Positions 40,907 to 50,277 of a stretch of DNA of 64,000 nucleotides are shown here, piece after piece. Position 1 is the stretch's first letter. Each line of letters starts with the position of its first letter. The position numbers were made by a program, and so were the translations under genes. Origin of the DNA: Deltaproteobacteria bacterium (GTDB lineage: Bacteria > Desulfobacterota > Syntrophia > Syntrophales > Smithellaceae). The stretch lies in contig JAAYDW010000068.1 of NCBI GenBank assembly GCA_012729055.1, positions 1 through 64,000 of the forward strand, in the 5' to 3' direction. The notes under the pieces are model-generated. The model saw only the letters and a list, made by a program, of their open reading frames with translations, had not been told where the DNA came from and made no database searches.

Positions 40907-43900
40907 TTAAAGGAAGCCCTCCGTCTTTTCGGACGGAGCCGTCCATTCCTGCCGGGCGACCTGCGCTTTGATCCGGCCGGCGATGACCTCGACGGCTTCA
41001 CTGAAGAGAAATTCCAGCGGAAACGCCTCCAGATACCGGTCGGTCCAGATCAGGTTGTACTCATCGATGAGATTGCGGATATCGTTGTACCGGTAGCCCA
41101 GCGCCGTGATTTTCTGCGGCAGGCCGAGCGCCTCGTTGTATGCGATGTGAATCAAAAGCAGGTTGCTGATTTCCGGTCCTTCCGCCCGGTATGGGACGAT
41201 CAGGATGGGGGAGCCGTCCGTCTTCCCCCGGCCCAGATAGGCATGCCCCGTGCTGACGATGGTTCTTTTCACTCCCATCAGCGCCGTCGGCTGATCGGCG
41301 CGTGATTTCATGTGAAGAGCCGCTCCGGCTTTGGCGCAAACGGCAATCGTCGCTTGTTCAGTCGGATGGCCCTGGGCGTCCAGGCCGCGGATATCATACA
41401 CCGTATACCCCCGCACGGCGGCGAGCGCCGGCTGAATGCGGCTGATCATCCGGATGTCGCGGTAGCTCAGGTGCTTGAGGGTGATATTCAGGGAACCCAT
41501 GAGGTCGAAGATGAGGCCCGCCGCTTCTTTTTCCTTCCGGCTCGTTCCCACGGTCACCGTTTTGGCCTGGTGGCGAATGGCGTCGATGGGCCGGGACAGC
41601 TCATCGATGGCCGTCCCCAGGGTGACGTCAAGCAGGTCAAACGGCGAAAAAAGATCCTTTTCGTCCCGAAAGTCCTCGCGGATGTCCTGCAAAGGCAGTT
41701 TGCCGGCCGTGTATTTCATAAGCAGCAGGAGGTCGGAGAGGGTTTTGCCGCCGAGCACGCCGAAAGCGCCGCTCTGACGCCGTTCGTTGAAGGAACCGTA
41801 AAACGCGGCGATGATCCGGCCCAGCGACGGATCCGCAATGATGTCGAAAACGGACAGGCGCCGCTCTTGGCGCTGCGTGAGTTCCGCCGCCAGCCGTCCC
41901 CGGAACTCGCGGAGGAACTGCGCTTCCTCGTCGATGGCCTGCGCGGCGAAATAGCCCCACAGATGGCCGGCCATCGTGTTGAAGATGACCGGCAGGGGGG
42001 AGGGCGCCCGGGGAAGGGCGATAACCGCGTCGGCCGTGTCGTCGAAGCGCCCATCGCCTTCATCGGCGAAAACAATCACCGTTGACTTATGGGCTTTAAA
42101 GATGGCGACGTCCTTGGCGATATCCTCCTGCACCGCTTCGGGATTGCCCGCGGCGCAGACCAGGATCAGGGGTTCGGCGGATAAATCGATGTGCTTTTTG
42201 TTTTCAACGATGTCGGAGGAGATGGTGCGGTAGCAAAGCTCCGAGAGCTTGATCCGGATTTCATCGGCGGCCGCCTTGTTGGGGCCGCTGCCCACCACCG
42301 CCCAGTATCGTTTTCCGGCGGCTTTTTTCACCGACGCGGCGATCGCGTCGCGGCGCGCGACGATGCGGCTCATCAGCTGAGGCGCCGCTTCCAGATGCCG
42401 GAGCTGCAGGGCGATGGCGTCGTCGCTTTGCGCGCGCGTCAGCTTTGCGAAAAAGAGAGCCAGGATGTGGCCGGCGACGATCTGGGCGTAAAAGGCTTTG
42501 GTCGAGGCCACCGACATCTCGATGTCGCGTCCGTCGCTCGTGTAAAACACGCCGTGCGACTTGGCGGTGATGTCGGACTGCCGGCGGTTGACAATCGAGA
42601 GGATGAAGGCGCCGCGTTTCCGGGCCATGGCGACGGCGCGGTTGGTGTCGGTGGTGGTGCCGGATTGCGTAATTGGAATGACGAGCGCGCCGGAGAGGTC
42701 TTCCTGAAGTCCGAAACCGCTGAGCTCGGATGCCACGCGGGCGGTTACCATGATGCCGGTTCCCTTGAGGTGGTGCGCCATAGCGTCGGCTATCGCCTGG
42801 CCCGCCACTGCCGCTGTTCCGTGGCCGATGACGACGATGTTGCGGATCCGGCCGTTTTGCAGTTCCTCGCGCACCGCGGCGGGAACCATGTCCCCGCCCA
42901 GATTGAACTCTACGCCGACAGATGAAGGATGGTCGGAGATGATGCGGTATTTTCCCCGCAGGGTTCTCCGGACCGACAGAGCGGCTTCGGAGATTTCCTT
43001 GAGAAAGAAATGGGGAAAGCCGCCGCGGTCGATATCCCGGGTGGTGATTTCGGCGGTTTGCAGCGCGTCGTCGGCAAGAGCGAGTCTTTTGCCGTCGTAG
43101 GAAAAAGCGTCGATGCCGCCAAGGCCGCCGCGCGCCGGATCGAGGATGAAAATCTGGCCGGCCGCGGAGCCGTCCCGGGCCTCTCCGTTCATCTTGACGA
43201 AGCGGGGCATCACCTCCACGAGGCCGTACAGCTCCGAGGAAAATACATATTGATCGGGCGAGACGCCCACATAAAGGGACTGGCCGCTGCCTTTGAGCGC
43301 GAGAAACATTTTCCCCGGCTCCAGGCTGCAGTGCATGGCGATGGCATGCGATCCCTCAAAATCGTTTACGGCCAGCCGGAAGGCTTCCGGAAGCGGCGTC
43401 CCCTCCTGCAGGTACTTTTCAATTTGCAGCGGAATGATTTTGGTATCGGTCGTGACGGCGGGCGCAATCAGCTCTCCCCGGGACTCGAGGGCCTGGCGGA
43501 GCGCCGCATAGTTGTCAATGTCCCCGTTCAGCGCCACGCTGATCTGCGCGGCCGCGCCGACCGGCGCTTCTCCGCCTCTGTGATTGTTGACCGGATGACA
43601 ATTTTCTTCGGAGATGGAGCCGACGGAGGCCCAGCGGGTGTGCGTCAGGGCAATTTCGCCTGAGGCGCCGGCCGCGGCGAAAAGCCGCAGCAGGGAATCG
43701 TCCGAGATGGCGCGCCTGAGCGCCGCCACGTTGCGTCCCAGCTCGCCGACGATGGAATAGGTTTTATACGTGAAGGTAACGGAGATTTTTCCCGCGGAGG
43801 CCTGCGGATTCCGGCTGATCGAGACGGACGCGTCGCGCAAGTCCCCGGTTTGTGTGCGGCGCCGGAAATCGGCGGTTAATCCCCGGGCGGAAATTTGCCG

Positions 43901-44647
43901 TTCGATTTCCTGCAGGTTCTGGTCTTCGTCGAGCGCGAAGGCCAGCTGAATACCCGCCGAATCCCGTCCTCTTACTTCCAGGCGATCCAGCGCGTTTAAA
44001 AGCAAATTGAGCTTCCGGTATTTGCCGAATGCCGCCGGCGCCAGCTCTGCCGGGGAGTGCGCTCCGCTGAGGGAGGCGATCTTTTCCAGATTTTCCAGGA
44101 TGTCCTTCTCCAGCATCCAGCGGATGTCTTTGAGCAGGATGAGCCGGCTGTGAATGGTTTCCAGCTCGGCGGAGGAGAGGACCGCGGCCTGATCCTCCAG
44201 GTTTTTTTCCTCATCCGCCAGAAAGGCGCCCATGTCCCCGGCCAGCGACGCCAGGTTTTCCGCACGACCGGGGTGAAAAAAAAGATCTTTCTGGGCGGCT
44301 TCCCGCTTAAGCGACAAAACGGCCGCGTTTAGAGAGACGAGCGTTTCCTCTCCCCCTGCGTAATCGGCCGCCGTGCGGTTCCGGCCGGCAACAACGGCGA
44401 GGCCGGCGCTTTTTGCTTTTTCCCAAAGGCCGGCAAGCGGCATGTCGGCGGCTGTTTTTCCGGATGGTTTCCCGCTCCGGCAGGTCATCAGACCGGCCAG
44501 ACCGCAATTAAGCCGGCCGGGCAGGAAGGGGAAGAAGATGATCGCGGGCGCGCTCACGCAAGCCGGGCGACGACCGATGTGGAGACGGCATCGAATAATG
44601 AAAAGCAGAAAATTGTGCAAACGGCGGGACATTTTTGTATAACGCAT
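40907..44647 (-). CDS. giant GlmS-like amidotransferase/SIS protein
   Basis: A 1246-codon protein, about twice GlmS (about 610). GlmS hallmarks are spread out: CGLAGLM (Cys48, expected glutaminase nucleophile), RGRDSAG at 226-232, LTHTRWASVG at 335-344, VALNGDIDN at 372-380, SIS domain 1 with TQSGTTTDT (661-669) and VASTKAF (714-720), SIS 2 from about 780 with KLSELCY (801-807), and AKTVTV (1029-1034), which matches the usual C-terminus. Extra parts: about 150 helical residues between Cys48 and RGRDSAG, about 100 residues before AKTVTV, and about 210 new residues after it. It should use glutamine to aminate a sugar phosphate. The start is uncertain: ATG 44647 or 44632, or GTG 44557, none with a good RBS and none next to Cys48. 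Confidence 0.82.
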   Translation of the reverse strand: MRYTKMSRRLHNFLLFIIRCRLHIGRRPACVSAPAIIFFPFLPGRLNCGLAGLMTCRSGKPSGKTAADMPLAGLWEKAKSAGLAVVAGRNRTAADYAGGEETLVSLNAAVLSLKREAAQKDLFFHPGRAENLASLAGDMGAFLADEEKNLEDQAAVLSSAELETIHSRLILLKDIRWMLEKDILENLEKIASLSGAHSPAELAPAAFGKYRKLNLLLNALDRLEVRGRDSAGIQLAFALDEDQNLQEIERQISARGLTADFRRRTQTGDLRDASVSISRNPQASAGKISVTFTYKTYSIVGELGRNVAALRRAISDDSLLRLFAAAGASGEIALTHTRWASVGSISEENCHPVNNHRGGEAPVGAAAQISVALNGDIDNYAALRQALESRGELIAPAVTTDTKIIPLQIEKYLQEGTPLPEAFRLAVNDFEGSHAIAMHCSLEPGKMFLALKGSGQSLYVGVSPDQYVFSSELYGLVEVMPRFVKMNGEARDGSAAGQIFILDPARGGLGGIDAFSYDGKRLALADDALQTAEITTRDIDRGGFPHFFLKEISEAALSVRRTLRGKYRIISDHPSSVGVEFNLGGDMVPAAVREELQNGRIRNIVVIGHGTAAVAGQAIADAMAHHLKGTGIMVTARVASELSGFGLQEDLSGALVIPITQSGTTTDTNRAVAMARKRGAFILSIVNRRQSDITAKSHGVFYTSDGRDIEMSVASTKAFYAQIVAGHILALFFAKLTRAQSDDAIALQLRHLEAAPQLMSRIVARRDAIAASVKKAAGKRYWAVVGSGPNKAAADEIRIKLSELCYRTISSDIVENKKHIDLSAEPLILVCAAGNPEAVQEDIAKDVAIFKAHKSTVIVFADEGDGRFDDTADAVIALPRAPSPLPVIFNTMAGHLWGYFAAQAIDEEAQFLREFRGRLAAELTQRQERRLSVFDIIADPSLGRIIAAFYGSFNERRQSGAFGVLGGKTLSDLLLLMKYTAGKLPLQDIREDFRDEKDLFSPFDLLDVTLGTAIDELSRPIDAIRHQAKTVTVGTSRKEKEAAGLIFDLMGSLNITLKHLSYRDIRMISRIQPALAAVRGYTVYDIRGLDAQGHPTEQATIAVCAKAGAALHMKSRADQPTALMGVKRTIVSTGHAYLGRGKTDGSPILIVPYRAEGPEISNLLLIHIAYNEALGLPQKITALGYRYNDIRNLIDEYNLIWTDRYLEAFPLEFLFSEAVEVIAGRIKAQVARQEWTAPSEKTEGFL

Positions 44648-44988: not shown

Positions 44989-45300
44989 CTATTTCATTTT
45001 TTCGCAGTCGATGCCCAGTTTGGCCATCTTGTCGGTAAAGGTGTTGCGGTTGATGCCCAGATAAGCGGCCGCCGTGCTTTTCACATAACTGGAGCGCCGC
45101 AGCGCGATTTTAAACAAACCCTTTTCCACCATCGCCATGACTTCTTCGTGCAGTTTGCTTTTGCCGTTGTCGGAAACGGCCAGAACCGTCGCCAGGTCAT
45201 CCAGATTTTTTTCCAATATTTCTTCAACGGCCGCGTGACAGGTTTCATGCACGTCCGATACGGCCGCCGGTTTGTCGAATTTTCTTGCCTTGATCGTCAT
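44989..45300 (-). CDS. Fis-family DNA-binding protein
   Basis: A 103-residue protein whose last 45 residues form a Fis-type helix-turn-helix (SSYVKSTAAAYLGINRNTFTDKMAKLGI), the same as the DNA-binding end of NtrC activators and of E. coli Fis. The N-terminal half, with HEEVMAMVEKGLFKIALRR, matches the Fis dimerisation helices. Probable nucleoid-associated or global regulator. RBS GGGAG lies a few bases before ATG. It is transcribed towards the giant GlmS gene, but 341 bases separate them. Confidence 0.82.
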   Translation of the reverse strand: MTIKARKFDKPAAVSDVHETCHAAVEEILEKNLDDLATVLAVSDNGKSKLHEEVMAMVEKGLFKIALRRSSYVKSTAAAYLGINRNTFTDKMAKLGIDCEKMK

Positions 45301-48186: not shown

Positions 48187-49257
48187 ATGGAAATCAAAAT
48201 TATCAAAGCGTTGCCGAAATACCTGAAACCTAAACCCGATGAGACCAAATTGGGATTCGGCCGGCATTTTACGGATCACATGTTTTCGATGAAATACAAA
48301 AACGGAACCGGCTGGCATGATCCCGTCATCGAACCGTACCATCTGCTGCAGCTGGACCCCACCGCCATGTGCCTGCATTACGGGCAGGAAATCTTCGAGG
48401 GGCTCAAGGCGTACCGCGGCAAAAAAGAAGAAATTTATCTGTTTCGGCCGCTGGAGAACATCCGGCGGATGAACACGTCCGCCGAGCGGCTCTGCATGCC
48501 TCCGATCGACGAAACCGTCTTTTTCGATGCGCTCAAGAAATTCGTGCTTTTGGAAAAAGAATGGATTCCCCGGGAAGCCGGCTCTTCGCTGTACATCCGG
48601 CCGACGATGATTGCCACCGAGGCGGCGCTCGGCGTTCATCCCTCCGGCGAATACCTCTTTTTCATCATTGCCGGACCGGTGGGCGCCTATTACCCGCACG
48701 GTTTTTCCCCGACCAAAATTTATGTGTCCGACGAGTATGTGCGGGCGGCGCCGGGCGGCACCGGACAGATCAAGGCGGCGGGTAATTACGCGGCGAGTCT
48801 TTACGCCAGCCGCATCGCCACCAACATGGGCTATACGCAGGTGCTGTGGCTCGACGCGCGGGAAAAGAAGTATGTGGAAGAAGTGGGCACGAGCAATATT
48901 TTCTTTTTGATCGGCGATGAGCTGGTCACGCCGCCTCTGGGCGGGACCATTCTGCCGGGCGTGACCCGCGATTCCGTGCTCAAACTGGCCGTCCATTTCG
49001 GCGTCAAGGTCAGCGAAAGGCCGCTCGCCATCGATGAGGTGATTGCCGCCATCGAAAATGGAACGCTTCAGGAGTCCTTTGCTTCGGGAACCGCCGCGGT
49101 CATTTCACCGGTGGGCCAGATTTTTTACAACAAAAAGGAATATCTCATCAACAACGGGAAGACGGGCGCGCTTGCCCAGAGATTATTCAATGAAATAATG
49201 CACATCCAGTATGGGAACAAACAAGATCCCTTCAACTGGCGCGTGCAGATCGGCTAG
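48187..49257 (+). CDS. ilvE: branched-chain amino-acid aminotransferase
   Basis: A 356-residue fold-type IV PLP aminotransferase of the larger BCAT subgroup (LGFGRHFTDHMFSMKY; HYGQEIFEGLKAYRG; IRPTMIATEAALGV). The PLP Lys is expected in GQIKAAGNYAASL, and EEVGTSNIFF and GTAAVISPVG close the site. It interconverts Val, Leu and Ile with their 2-oxo acids using glutamate. AGAGG before the ATG. A possible terminator follows. Confidence 0.95.
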   Translation: MEIKIIKALPKYLKPKPDETKLGFGRHFTDHMFSMKYKNGTGWHDPVIEPYHLLQLDPTAMCLHYGQEIFEGLKAYRGKKEEIYLFRPLENIRRMNTSAERLCMPPIDETVFFDALKKFVLLEKEWIPREAGSSLYIRPTMIATEAALGVHPSGEYLFFIIAGPVGAYYPHGFSPTKIYVSDEYVRAAPGGTGQIKAAGNYAASLYASRIATNMGYTQVLWLDAREKKYVEEVGTSNIFFLIGDELVTPPLGGTILPGVTRDSVLKLAVHFGVKVSERPLAIDEVIAAIENGTLQESFASGTAAVISPVGQIFYNKKEYLINNGKTGALAQRLFNEIMHIQYGNKQDPFNWRVQIG

Positions 49258-49294
49258 GCCGACGCTTCCGGAAACAGGCGCCGTCCGGCTTTTT
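49257..49294 (+). terminator. possible terminator after ilvE
   Basis: An imperfect G+C stem (GGCCGAC at 49257-49263 with GTCCGGCT at 49283-49290, one bulge), then TTTT. Weaker than the other terminators in the window. Confidence 0.4.
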
Positions 49295-49322
49295 ATGCAC
49301 TGGATACCGACACTTGAAACTG

Positions 49323-49368
49323 TATTCCACAAAGTTGTGGAAAAGTCTGTTGATAACCGTGTGGATAA
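49323..49368. other. cluster of four DnaA-box-like 9-mers
   Basis: Within 46 bases: TATTCCACA (323-331, +, one mismatch to TTWTNCACA), TTTTCCACA (336-344, -, full match), TTATCAACA (348-356, -, one mismatch) and TTATCCACA (360-368, -, perfect). The last three start exactly 12 bases apart on the same strand. An A+T-rich stretch follows at about 49401-49470. It lies in the 312-base gap between ilvE and lolA. Confidence 0.6.
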
Positions 49369-49406
49369 AAGCGGCAAGTCCGCGCTGATCAGGCTTTTGG
49401 ACCAAA

Positions 49407-49425
49407 TTGCTTAAGGTTTAAGCAA
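49407..49425. repeat. inverted repeat in the ilvE-lolA gap
   Basis: TTGCTTAA (407-414), GGT, TTAAGCAA (418-425): perfect 8-base arms. Dyad of operator size, next to the DnaA-box cluster. Confidence 0.6.
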
Positions 49426-49569
49426 GATGATATGCGAGTAATATCAATTATTTATGGAATATGCCCTTTGATCATCGCCACTTATGATGTCCCCGGGCGC
49501 AAGATATAAACGCCTTTGAAAAAAATGTGCCATCTGTGCCGGTTTACGGGATATTTCCGGAAAGAAAAA

Positions 49570-50277
49570 ATGAGCAGATTAAATCTTAAAAAAAATGCGT
49601 CATTTAAGCCGACTGCTTCCGCAGGAGGGCTGCTGGTGTTTTGCTGGCTGATCATTTTTGCCGCAGCAGCCGCTGCCGCCGAGATGCCGCCCCTTGCCGA
49701 AACCGTCGCCCGTCTGCAGCAGATCTATGAGCGGACTGAGGATTTTCAGGCGTCGTTTGTTCAGGAAACGACCGTGAAATCCATCCGCAAAACGGAGGTG
49801 GAAGAAGGGGTCGTTTATTTTAAAAATCCCCGGCAAATGCTGTGGGATTATCAAAAGCCAAAAGCCAAAAAACTCATCATCAACGCGCAAAAAGCCTGGC
49901 TTTATCTGCCGCAGGATAAAACCGTCTACACCCAGGACGCAGACCGGATTTTTAAATCCGAGGCCCTTATCAGGTTTTTGTCCGGTTTGGGCAAACTGAC
50001 CGAGGACTTCACGATTCGCTACGCGGCGCCTGCGGCCACGGACAGGAAAGGTCATTATCTGCTCCAGTTGTATCCGCGGGAAAAGGGAGCTTCCTACGCC
50101 TATCTGCAAATGACGCTCGATAAAAATTCCTTCCAGATCCTTGAGGTCAGTTTCGACGACGTCATGGGCAACACCACCCGCCTGAAATTTTCCGCAATCA
50201 AAATGAATGCCGGACTTTCCGCAAAAATGTTTCAGTTCCAGCCGCCTTCCGGAACGAGCATTTTCAAAATGCCGTAA
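49570..50277 (+). CDS. lolA: outer-membrane lipoprotein carrier LolA
   Basis: A 235-residue periplasmic protein. After an N-terminal hydrophobic signal (GGLLVFCWLIIFAAAAAAAEM) comes the LolA fold: TVARLQQIYERTEDFQASFVQET, EEGVVYFKNPRQMLWDYQKP, VYTQDADRIFKSEALIRFLSGLG and GNTTRLKFSAIKMN. It ferries lipoproteins from LolCDE to the outer membrane. ATG 49570 has GGAAAG nearby; the frame also runs from a TTG at 49516, which would put charged residues before the signal and is less likely. Confidence 0.92.
   Translation: MSRLNLKKNASFKPTASAGGLLVFCWLIIFAAAAAAAEMPPLAETVARLQQIYERTEDFQASFVQETTVKSIRKTEVEEGVVYFKNPRQMLWDYQKPKAKKLIINAQKAWLYLPQDKTVYTQDADRIFKSEALIRFLSGLGKLTEDFTIRYAAPAATDRKGHYLLQLYPREKGASYAYLQMTLDKNSFQILEVSFDDVMGNTTRLKFSAIKMNAGLSAKMFQFQPPSGTSIFKMP

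Follow-up and report, generated by a model that had tools for sequence, protein, structure and literature searches.

A conserved module of DnaA boxes with predicted Fis and IHF sites in the ilvE-lolA spacer of Syntrophales, a candidate DARS-type DnaA control element

The spacer between ilvE and lolA in the window, the 64,000-nucleotide stretch of DNA analyzed here, contains a compact module that fits three ingredients, a core of DnaA boxes, a Fis dyad, and an IHF-like site, into about 130 bp (Table 1). Judged from its sequence features, the site is moderately likely to be a DARS-type chromosomal control element of DnaA that recharges ADP-DnaA. We observe the boxes and their geometry, the conservation of the block as a whole, its independence of particular neighboring genes, its position away from oriC, and a fit of the flanking DNA to the Fis and IHF consensus sequences.

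Table 1. Features of the module and its surroundings (positions in the window)
Feature	Position	Strand	Remarks
Fis-family protein, 103 aa, candidate dyad ligand	44989-45300	-	PF02954, E 2.3e-9; aligns with PDB Fis residues 46-97
ilvE, branched-chain aminotransferase	48187-49257	+	upstream neighbor
Conserved stretch of ilvE-lolA spacer	49292-49533		conserved as DNA in relatives
DnaA box I	49323-49331	+	TATTCCACA; 1 mismatch to TTWTNCACA; orientation opposite to boxes II-IV
DnaA box II	49336-49344	-	TTTTCCACA; 0 mismatches to TTWTNCACA; gap to box I 4 bp
DnaA box III	49348-49356	-	TTATCAACA; 1 mismatch to TTWTNCACA; gap to box II 3 bp
DnaA box IV	49360-49368	-	TTATCCACA; 0 mismatches to TTWTNCACA; gap to box III 3 bp
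Dyad TTGCTTAAGGTTTAAGCAA	49407-49425		Fis consensus GnnYAnnnnnTRnnC matched by its 15-bp core, 49409-49423
IHF-like site TATCAATTATTTA	49442-49454	+	0 mismatches to WATCAANNNNTTR
lolA, lipoprotein chaperone	49567-50277	+	downstream neighbor

The initial annotation had described four near-consensus DnaA boxes, the last three on the same strand with 12-bp spacing, and we confirmed both points. The four-box array lies within the ilvE-lolA spacer at 49323-49368, each box has at most one mismatch to TTWTNCACA, and boxes II-IV, all on the minus strand, follow an exact 12-bp period. The number of single boxes in the window shows no enrichment (TTATNCACA with at most one mismatch, 20 found versus 17.5 expected), and an exact search of the 3.36-Mb genome for the three-box pattern with its 12-bp period finds the present array only. 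The unusual feature is the array, not the number of single boxes. The TCCACA of box I is invariant in all 40 aligned relatives, which were chosen by a pattern containing TCCACA.

The module is conserved well beyond the window. Of 40 relatives (their labels include Smithella, Smithellaceae, and Syntrophaceae), 32 have DNA that matches the spacer at E <= 0.1; the strong matches mostly span the conserved stretch given in Table 1, and the weakest are short and may be due to chance. Oriented alignments of relatives show the box core, the dyad TTGCnnAnnnnnTnnGCA, and TATCAAnnnnTTA within an A+T-rich block. A sequence-only model, R1, was made from 40 ilvE-lolA spacers, and its matches lean toward the dyad because the training sequences contain it. 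At E <= 0.01, R1 matches 148 of 155 Syntrophales genomes, with one copy in 63 of the matching genomes, two copies in 64, three in 17, and four in 4. Boxes not conserved in relatives had been named beforehand as an outcome that would refute the initial interpretation, and the boxes turn out to be strongly conserved. A profile of the R1 alignment, run on 1.69 Mb of DNA, scores true sites at 87 bits or more and reversed DNA at 9.8 bits or less. The window's own genome has one convincing copy of the module, which counts against the DARS reading. A match on contig C29 of genome G022 was rejected as a copy because it failed to align as a module.

An A+T-rich segment had also been reported to follow the boxes. 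This holds for 49409-49470 (68% A+T; window mean, 42%) and does not hold for 49369-49408 (47%), so that the enrichment begins about 40 bp past the boxes, at 49409. For the A+T-rich part, the conserved IHF-like site is a better explanation than an unwinding element. Compared with published consensus sequences (Fis, PMC8682772; IHF, PMC4585315; both in excerpt), the DNA beside the core has predicted Fis and IHF sites, that is, consensus matches, at fixed offsets. For the site statistics, 3 modules without a recognizable core were removed beforehand, and 115 modules were reduced to 71 representatives sharing less than 80% identity. Of these 71, 43 carry an exact Fis consensus at one fixed offset (1 in 10,000 mononucleotide shuffles), and 25 have an IHF consensus with at most one mismatch no more than four bases from the usual location (about 1.2% of shuffles). 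The conservation of the IHF site is only moderate, which weighs against the DARS reading. TTGC stands at its normal position in 52 representatives; of these, 51 have C or T at Y, and all 52 have A or G at R.

A less biased test of the linkage between core and dyad than the R1-based sets comes from running only the box pattern over named genomes, which gave 105 stretches, 80 of them inspected. The correctly placed TTGCn11GCA is present in 59 of 65 loci with Desulfobacterota-type titles versus 1 of 14 loci with other titles, that one being an ilvE-lolA locus; the count covers 79 of the 80 loci, with L097 left out as too near its end. With R1 at E <= 0.001, 96 of 297 Desulfobacterota genomes match, 11 of them Syntrophales, and about seven of the listed R1 rows outside Syntrophales (counted by eye) stop before model position 120, the others spanning the dyad. 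The search of the phylum of genome G444, presumably Pseudomonadota because the locus of G444 is titled Rhodospirillales, gave R1 matches in 112 of 299 genomes. Of 20 loci belonging to other Desulfobacterota families, 16 match the Fis consensus exactly (0.6 expected) and 13 match the IHF consensus with at most one mismatch (1.0 expected). Of 10 loci taken from the G444-phylum search, 9 have such a Fis match (0.25 expected) and 6 such an IHF match (0.7 expected); both sets consist of the better-scoring R1 matches and are therefore biased toward the dyad. Among 14 genomes of other groups that were picked for bearing the core, 12 have a best R1 match confined to the core, reaching no further than model position 81. 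The other two are G445 (model positions 4-130) and G443, with a weak match (72-151). The G444-phylum search also returned a pair of modules 465 bp apart, close to a hemE-like gene (G624:C1:5094450 and 5094915), with a third, partial match elsewhere.

We compared the module with the E. coli elements that act on DnaA. In the core of DARS1 and DARS2, a plus-strand box is followed after 5 bp by a minus-strand box and after 3 bp by another minus-strand box; the opposite orientation of box I to boxes II and III is associated with head-to-head DnaA contact (PMC5742627 and PMC8682772, in excerpt). The window has the same three-box core with box I inverted, plus a fourth box, and its gaps are 4, 3, and 3 bp. 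The 4-bp gap in place of 5 bp and the fourth box both speak against the DARS reading; most other Desulfobacterota loci separate boxes I and II by 5 bp, and the exact 5/3 spacing is found in 8 of 10 loci from the G444-phylum search. According to the available parts of the same two papers, DARS2 requires IHF and Fis, and DnaA molecules positioned head to head at DARS boxes I and II, aided at DARS2 by these two proteins, bring about ADP release from ADP-DnaA; HU is no substitute for IHF at DARS2 (PMC5742627, in excerpt). The module resembles DARS2 in its inverted box I followed by tandem boxes, in having the Fis and IHF sites on one side, in being intergenic, and in lying off oriC, whereas it is much shorter, the similarity is one of layout and not of demonstrated sequence homology, and the order by consensus matches is core-Fis-IHF in the module and core-IHF-Fis in DARS2. 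The box order and orientation are also those of DARS1, but DARS1 is active without protein factors (PMC4585315, in excerpt), whereas the module has conserved extra sites.

From this comparison we infer binding by DnaA, a Fis-like protein, and IHF, and a DnaA-recharging effect. DnaA would bind the four-box core, and the facing boxes I and II would place two DnaA molecules head to head; a Fis-family dimer would bind the dyad, and IHF or a relative would bend the DNA just beyond it. The complex may then help ADP-DnaA to lose ADP and reload ATP, and the recharged DnaA would support the next round of initiation at the true origin, which lies by dnaA. The DnaA of the lineage retains residues matching E. 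coli D269, R285, and L290, which are general AAA+ residues.

The candidate ligand of the dyad is encoded about 4 kb from the module in the window, and relatives retain a similar Fis-like gene, no more than about 5 kb from the module in several of them and 36 kb away in G020. The predicted structure of the 103-aa protein has a mean pLDDT of 76, and its top Foldseek match is E. coli Fis at E 6e-3, which is above 0.001. The protein scores 22.9 bits versus the NCBI curated Fis cut-off of 99, which counts against the DARS reading. The C-terminal domains of NtrC-type regulators are related to Fis. In the 297-genome sample of the phylum, 36 genomes have both the module and a Fis-like match in a frame shorter than 350 aa, 60 have the module only, 11 the Fis-like match only, and 190 neither, an overlap above chance by statistics that ignore shared ancestry. 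Four protein families of the phylum (f28, f31, f40, and f59) comprise proteins of about 255-345 aa in which one segment resembles the small Fis-like protein, so that fusions of the Fis-like part with another domain may exist. A search for HU/IHF in six genomes gave no match at the IhfB cut-off, a further point against the DARS reading. The window also holds, at 40907-44647 on the minus strand, an unusually long frame of 1246 aa that seems to combine a glutamine amidotransferase with a sugar isomerase (GlmS-like).

If the module is DARS-like, it would be a new and much older variant of an element described as confined to E. coli relatives. The conservation of Fis and the DARS2 core is described as specific to E. 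coli-related gamma-proteobacteria (PMC4245941, in excerpt), and DARS loci are described as absent from B. subtilis (PMC13220808, in excerpt); our literature search, which mostly excluded subscription papers, found no report of DARS in Desulfobacterota. We tentatively suggest that DARS-type recharging with a Fis-family protein and IHF could be an ancient system, already at work in the ancestor shared by Desulfobacterota and Pseudomonadota, and not an invention of the E. coli relatives, and that the window site could be among its commonest surviving forms. The module bears on the largely open question of how DnaA is reset between rounds outside E. coli. The motif predicts candidate sites from sequence in hundreds of genomes, which makes this question testable in culturable Syntrophus and other Desulfobacterota, and comparison of modules offers a route to learning which parts of DARS are essential.

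A different role would be that of a datA-like or titrating site, in which tandem boxes on IHF-bent DNA take up ATP-DnaA or speed ATP hydrolysis and so block re-initiation. Boxes II-IV are indeed in tandem, in one direction and 3 bp apart, and are followed by the IHF-like site, and datA is likewise non-coding and IHF-dependent (PMC5742627 and PMC4585315, in excerpt). The window's own genome has a single PF00308 match, and hence no Hda-like protein is seen, which also suits this role. However, the essential datA boxes share one direction (PMC5742627, in excerpt), whereas box I of the module is inverted and the inverted pair belongs to the conserved core, and the conserved Fis dyad is a feature of DARS2 and not of datA. 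We therefore regard a datA-like or titrating role as unlikely, and recharging is favored over it because the three ingredients are present and the equivalents of D269, R285, and L290 are kept in DnaA.

A DnaA-regulated promoter region of lolA or ilvE is improbable as the chief function of the module, given that its neighboring genes differ from locus to locus. Box IV ends 198 bp upstream of lolA, and in most relatives the block sits at ilvE-lolA; among the 80 inspected loci of the box-pattern scan, 50 are at ilvE and/or lolA and 30 are elsewhere. Yet the same three-part module lies by unrelated genes, as second copies within genomes and across the phylum. Three genomes (G007, G009, and G015) have the ilvE-lolA copy and a second copy adjoining an AOR-family gene, the AOR-side copy is found alone in G004, and a copy lies near a fusA-like gene in G006, the identities of these genes being read from sequence. 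Flanks of 20 loci elsewhere in the phylum gave no match to the neighbors of the window's spacer. Two or three box-pattern stretches occur in the assemblies JAUSPK, JASEHT, DJVN, JAFGQS, and JAGGSD, among others. In these four congeners, the extra modules on contigs C9 of G009, C63 of G007, and C84 of G015 and the one on C99 of G004 (L023, L024, L025, and L022, respectively) lie between the AOR-family gene and FabK-like or ABC-F-like genes.

The initial annotation had kept a replication origin as a possibility beside a DnaA-titrating site. The part of that interpretation concerning DnaA binding or DnaA control stands, as the boxes are strongly conserved. The origin part is not borne out, since a skew minimum elsewhere, named beforehand as an outcome against it, is what we observe. 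As had been noted, dnaA is absent nearby: the only Bac_DnaA match of the genome is on contig C9, where the frames read as parA-parB-dnaA-dnaN-gyrB-gyrA (dnaA by Pfam, the order from the frames). On C9 the GC skew is negative to about 170 kb and positive beyond 180 kb, with dnaA at 168.9-170.3 kb, so that the skew minimum is at dnaA. On the window's own contig, C51, the skew is positive on either side of the module, and on contig C6 of G020 it is mostly negative on either side over 396 kb; the sign is unchanged across the boxes. The one-contig relative G081, which we take to be Syntrophus aciditrophicus (3,179,300 bases), reaches its lowest cumulative skew within the sampled region at dnaA and its highest near 1.8 Mb. 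Its modules are at 0.859 and 1.906 Mb, the first 0.86 Mb from dnaA and the second near the terminus; the module is intergenic and by these positions between origin and terminus, as a DARS is, and it lies off the skew minimum that marks oriC. A second origin in two-copy genomes was rejected, since the G081 copies are mid-replichore and near the terminus, off the skew minimum. In four further one-contig Desulfobacterota genomes with a dnaA match, all six modules are at least 0.5 Mb from dnaA, and the same holds for each of the eight modules when G081 is included as a fifth genome. Relative to the replication fork, the modules of C51, G020 C6, and both G081 copies are oriented alike by skew sign; a fixed orientation was dropped, as three of the six modules in the four other one-contig genomes fail by the nearer side of dnaA. 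A further one-contig Desulfobacterota genome, G266 (C1, 1,094,262 bases, 80% complete), has a weak module match and no Bac_DnaA match.

The dnaA-dnaN spacers of the lineage contain a DnaA box, a G+C-rich bit, and then a TTACTAnTACT-like run that resembles the DnaA-trio element, and we take this spacer to be the origin. This oriC shares DnaA boxes and A+T-rich DNA with the module, but it lies at the skew minimum, has a box followed by the trio-like run, and has no Fis dyad that we noticed. It is thus highly improbable that the module is a replication origin or a second origin, even though its boxes are clustered, its DNA is A+T-rich with an IHF-like site, and a similar box array lies in the dnaA-dnaN spacer of Desulfurobacteriaceae. 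In that family, TGTGGATAA arrays beside dnaA and/or dnaN (L088, L089, L090, L096, L097, and L098) have a module-like inverted start and no dyad, and they are probably its oriC. The occurrence of the core geometry alone beside dnaN in Desulfurobacteriaceae counts against the DARS reading. In Holosporales/Alphaproteobacteria, two loci (L049 and L100) have the box core and further boxes between glmU-like and fabI-like genes, which could be an origin or another control site.
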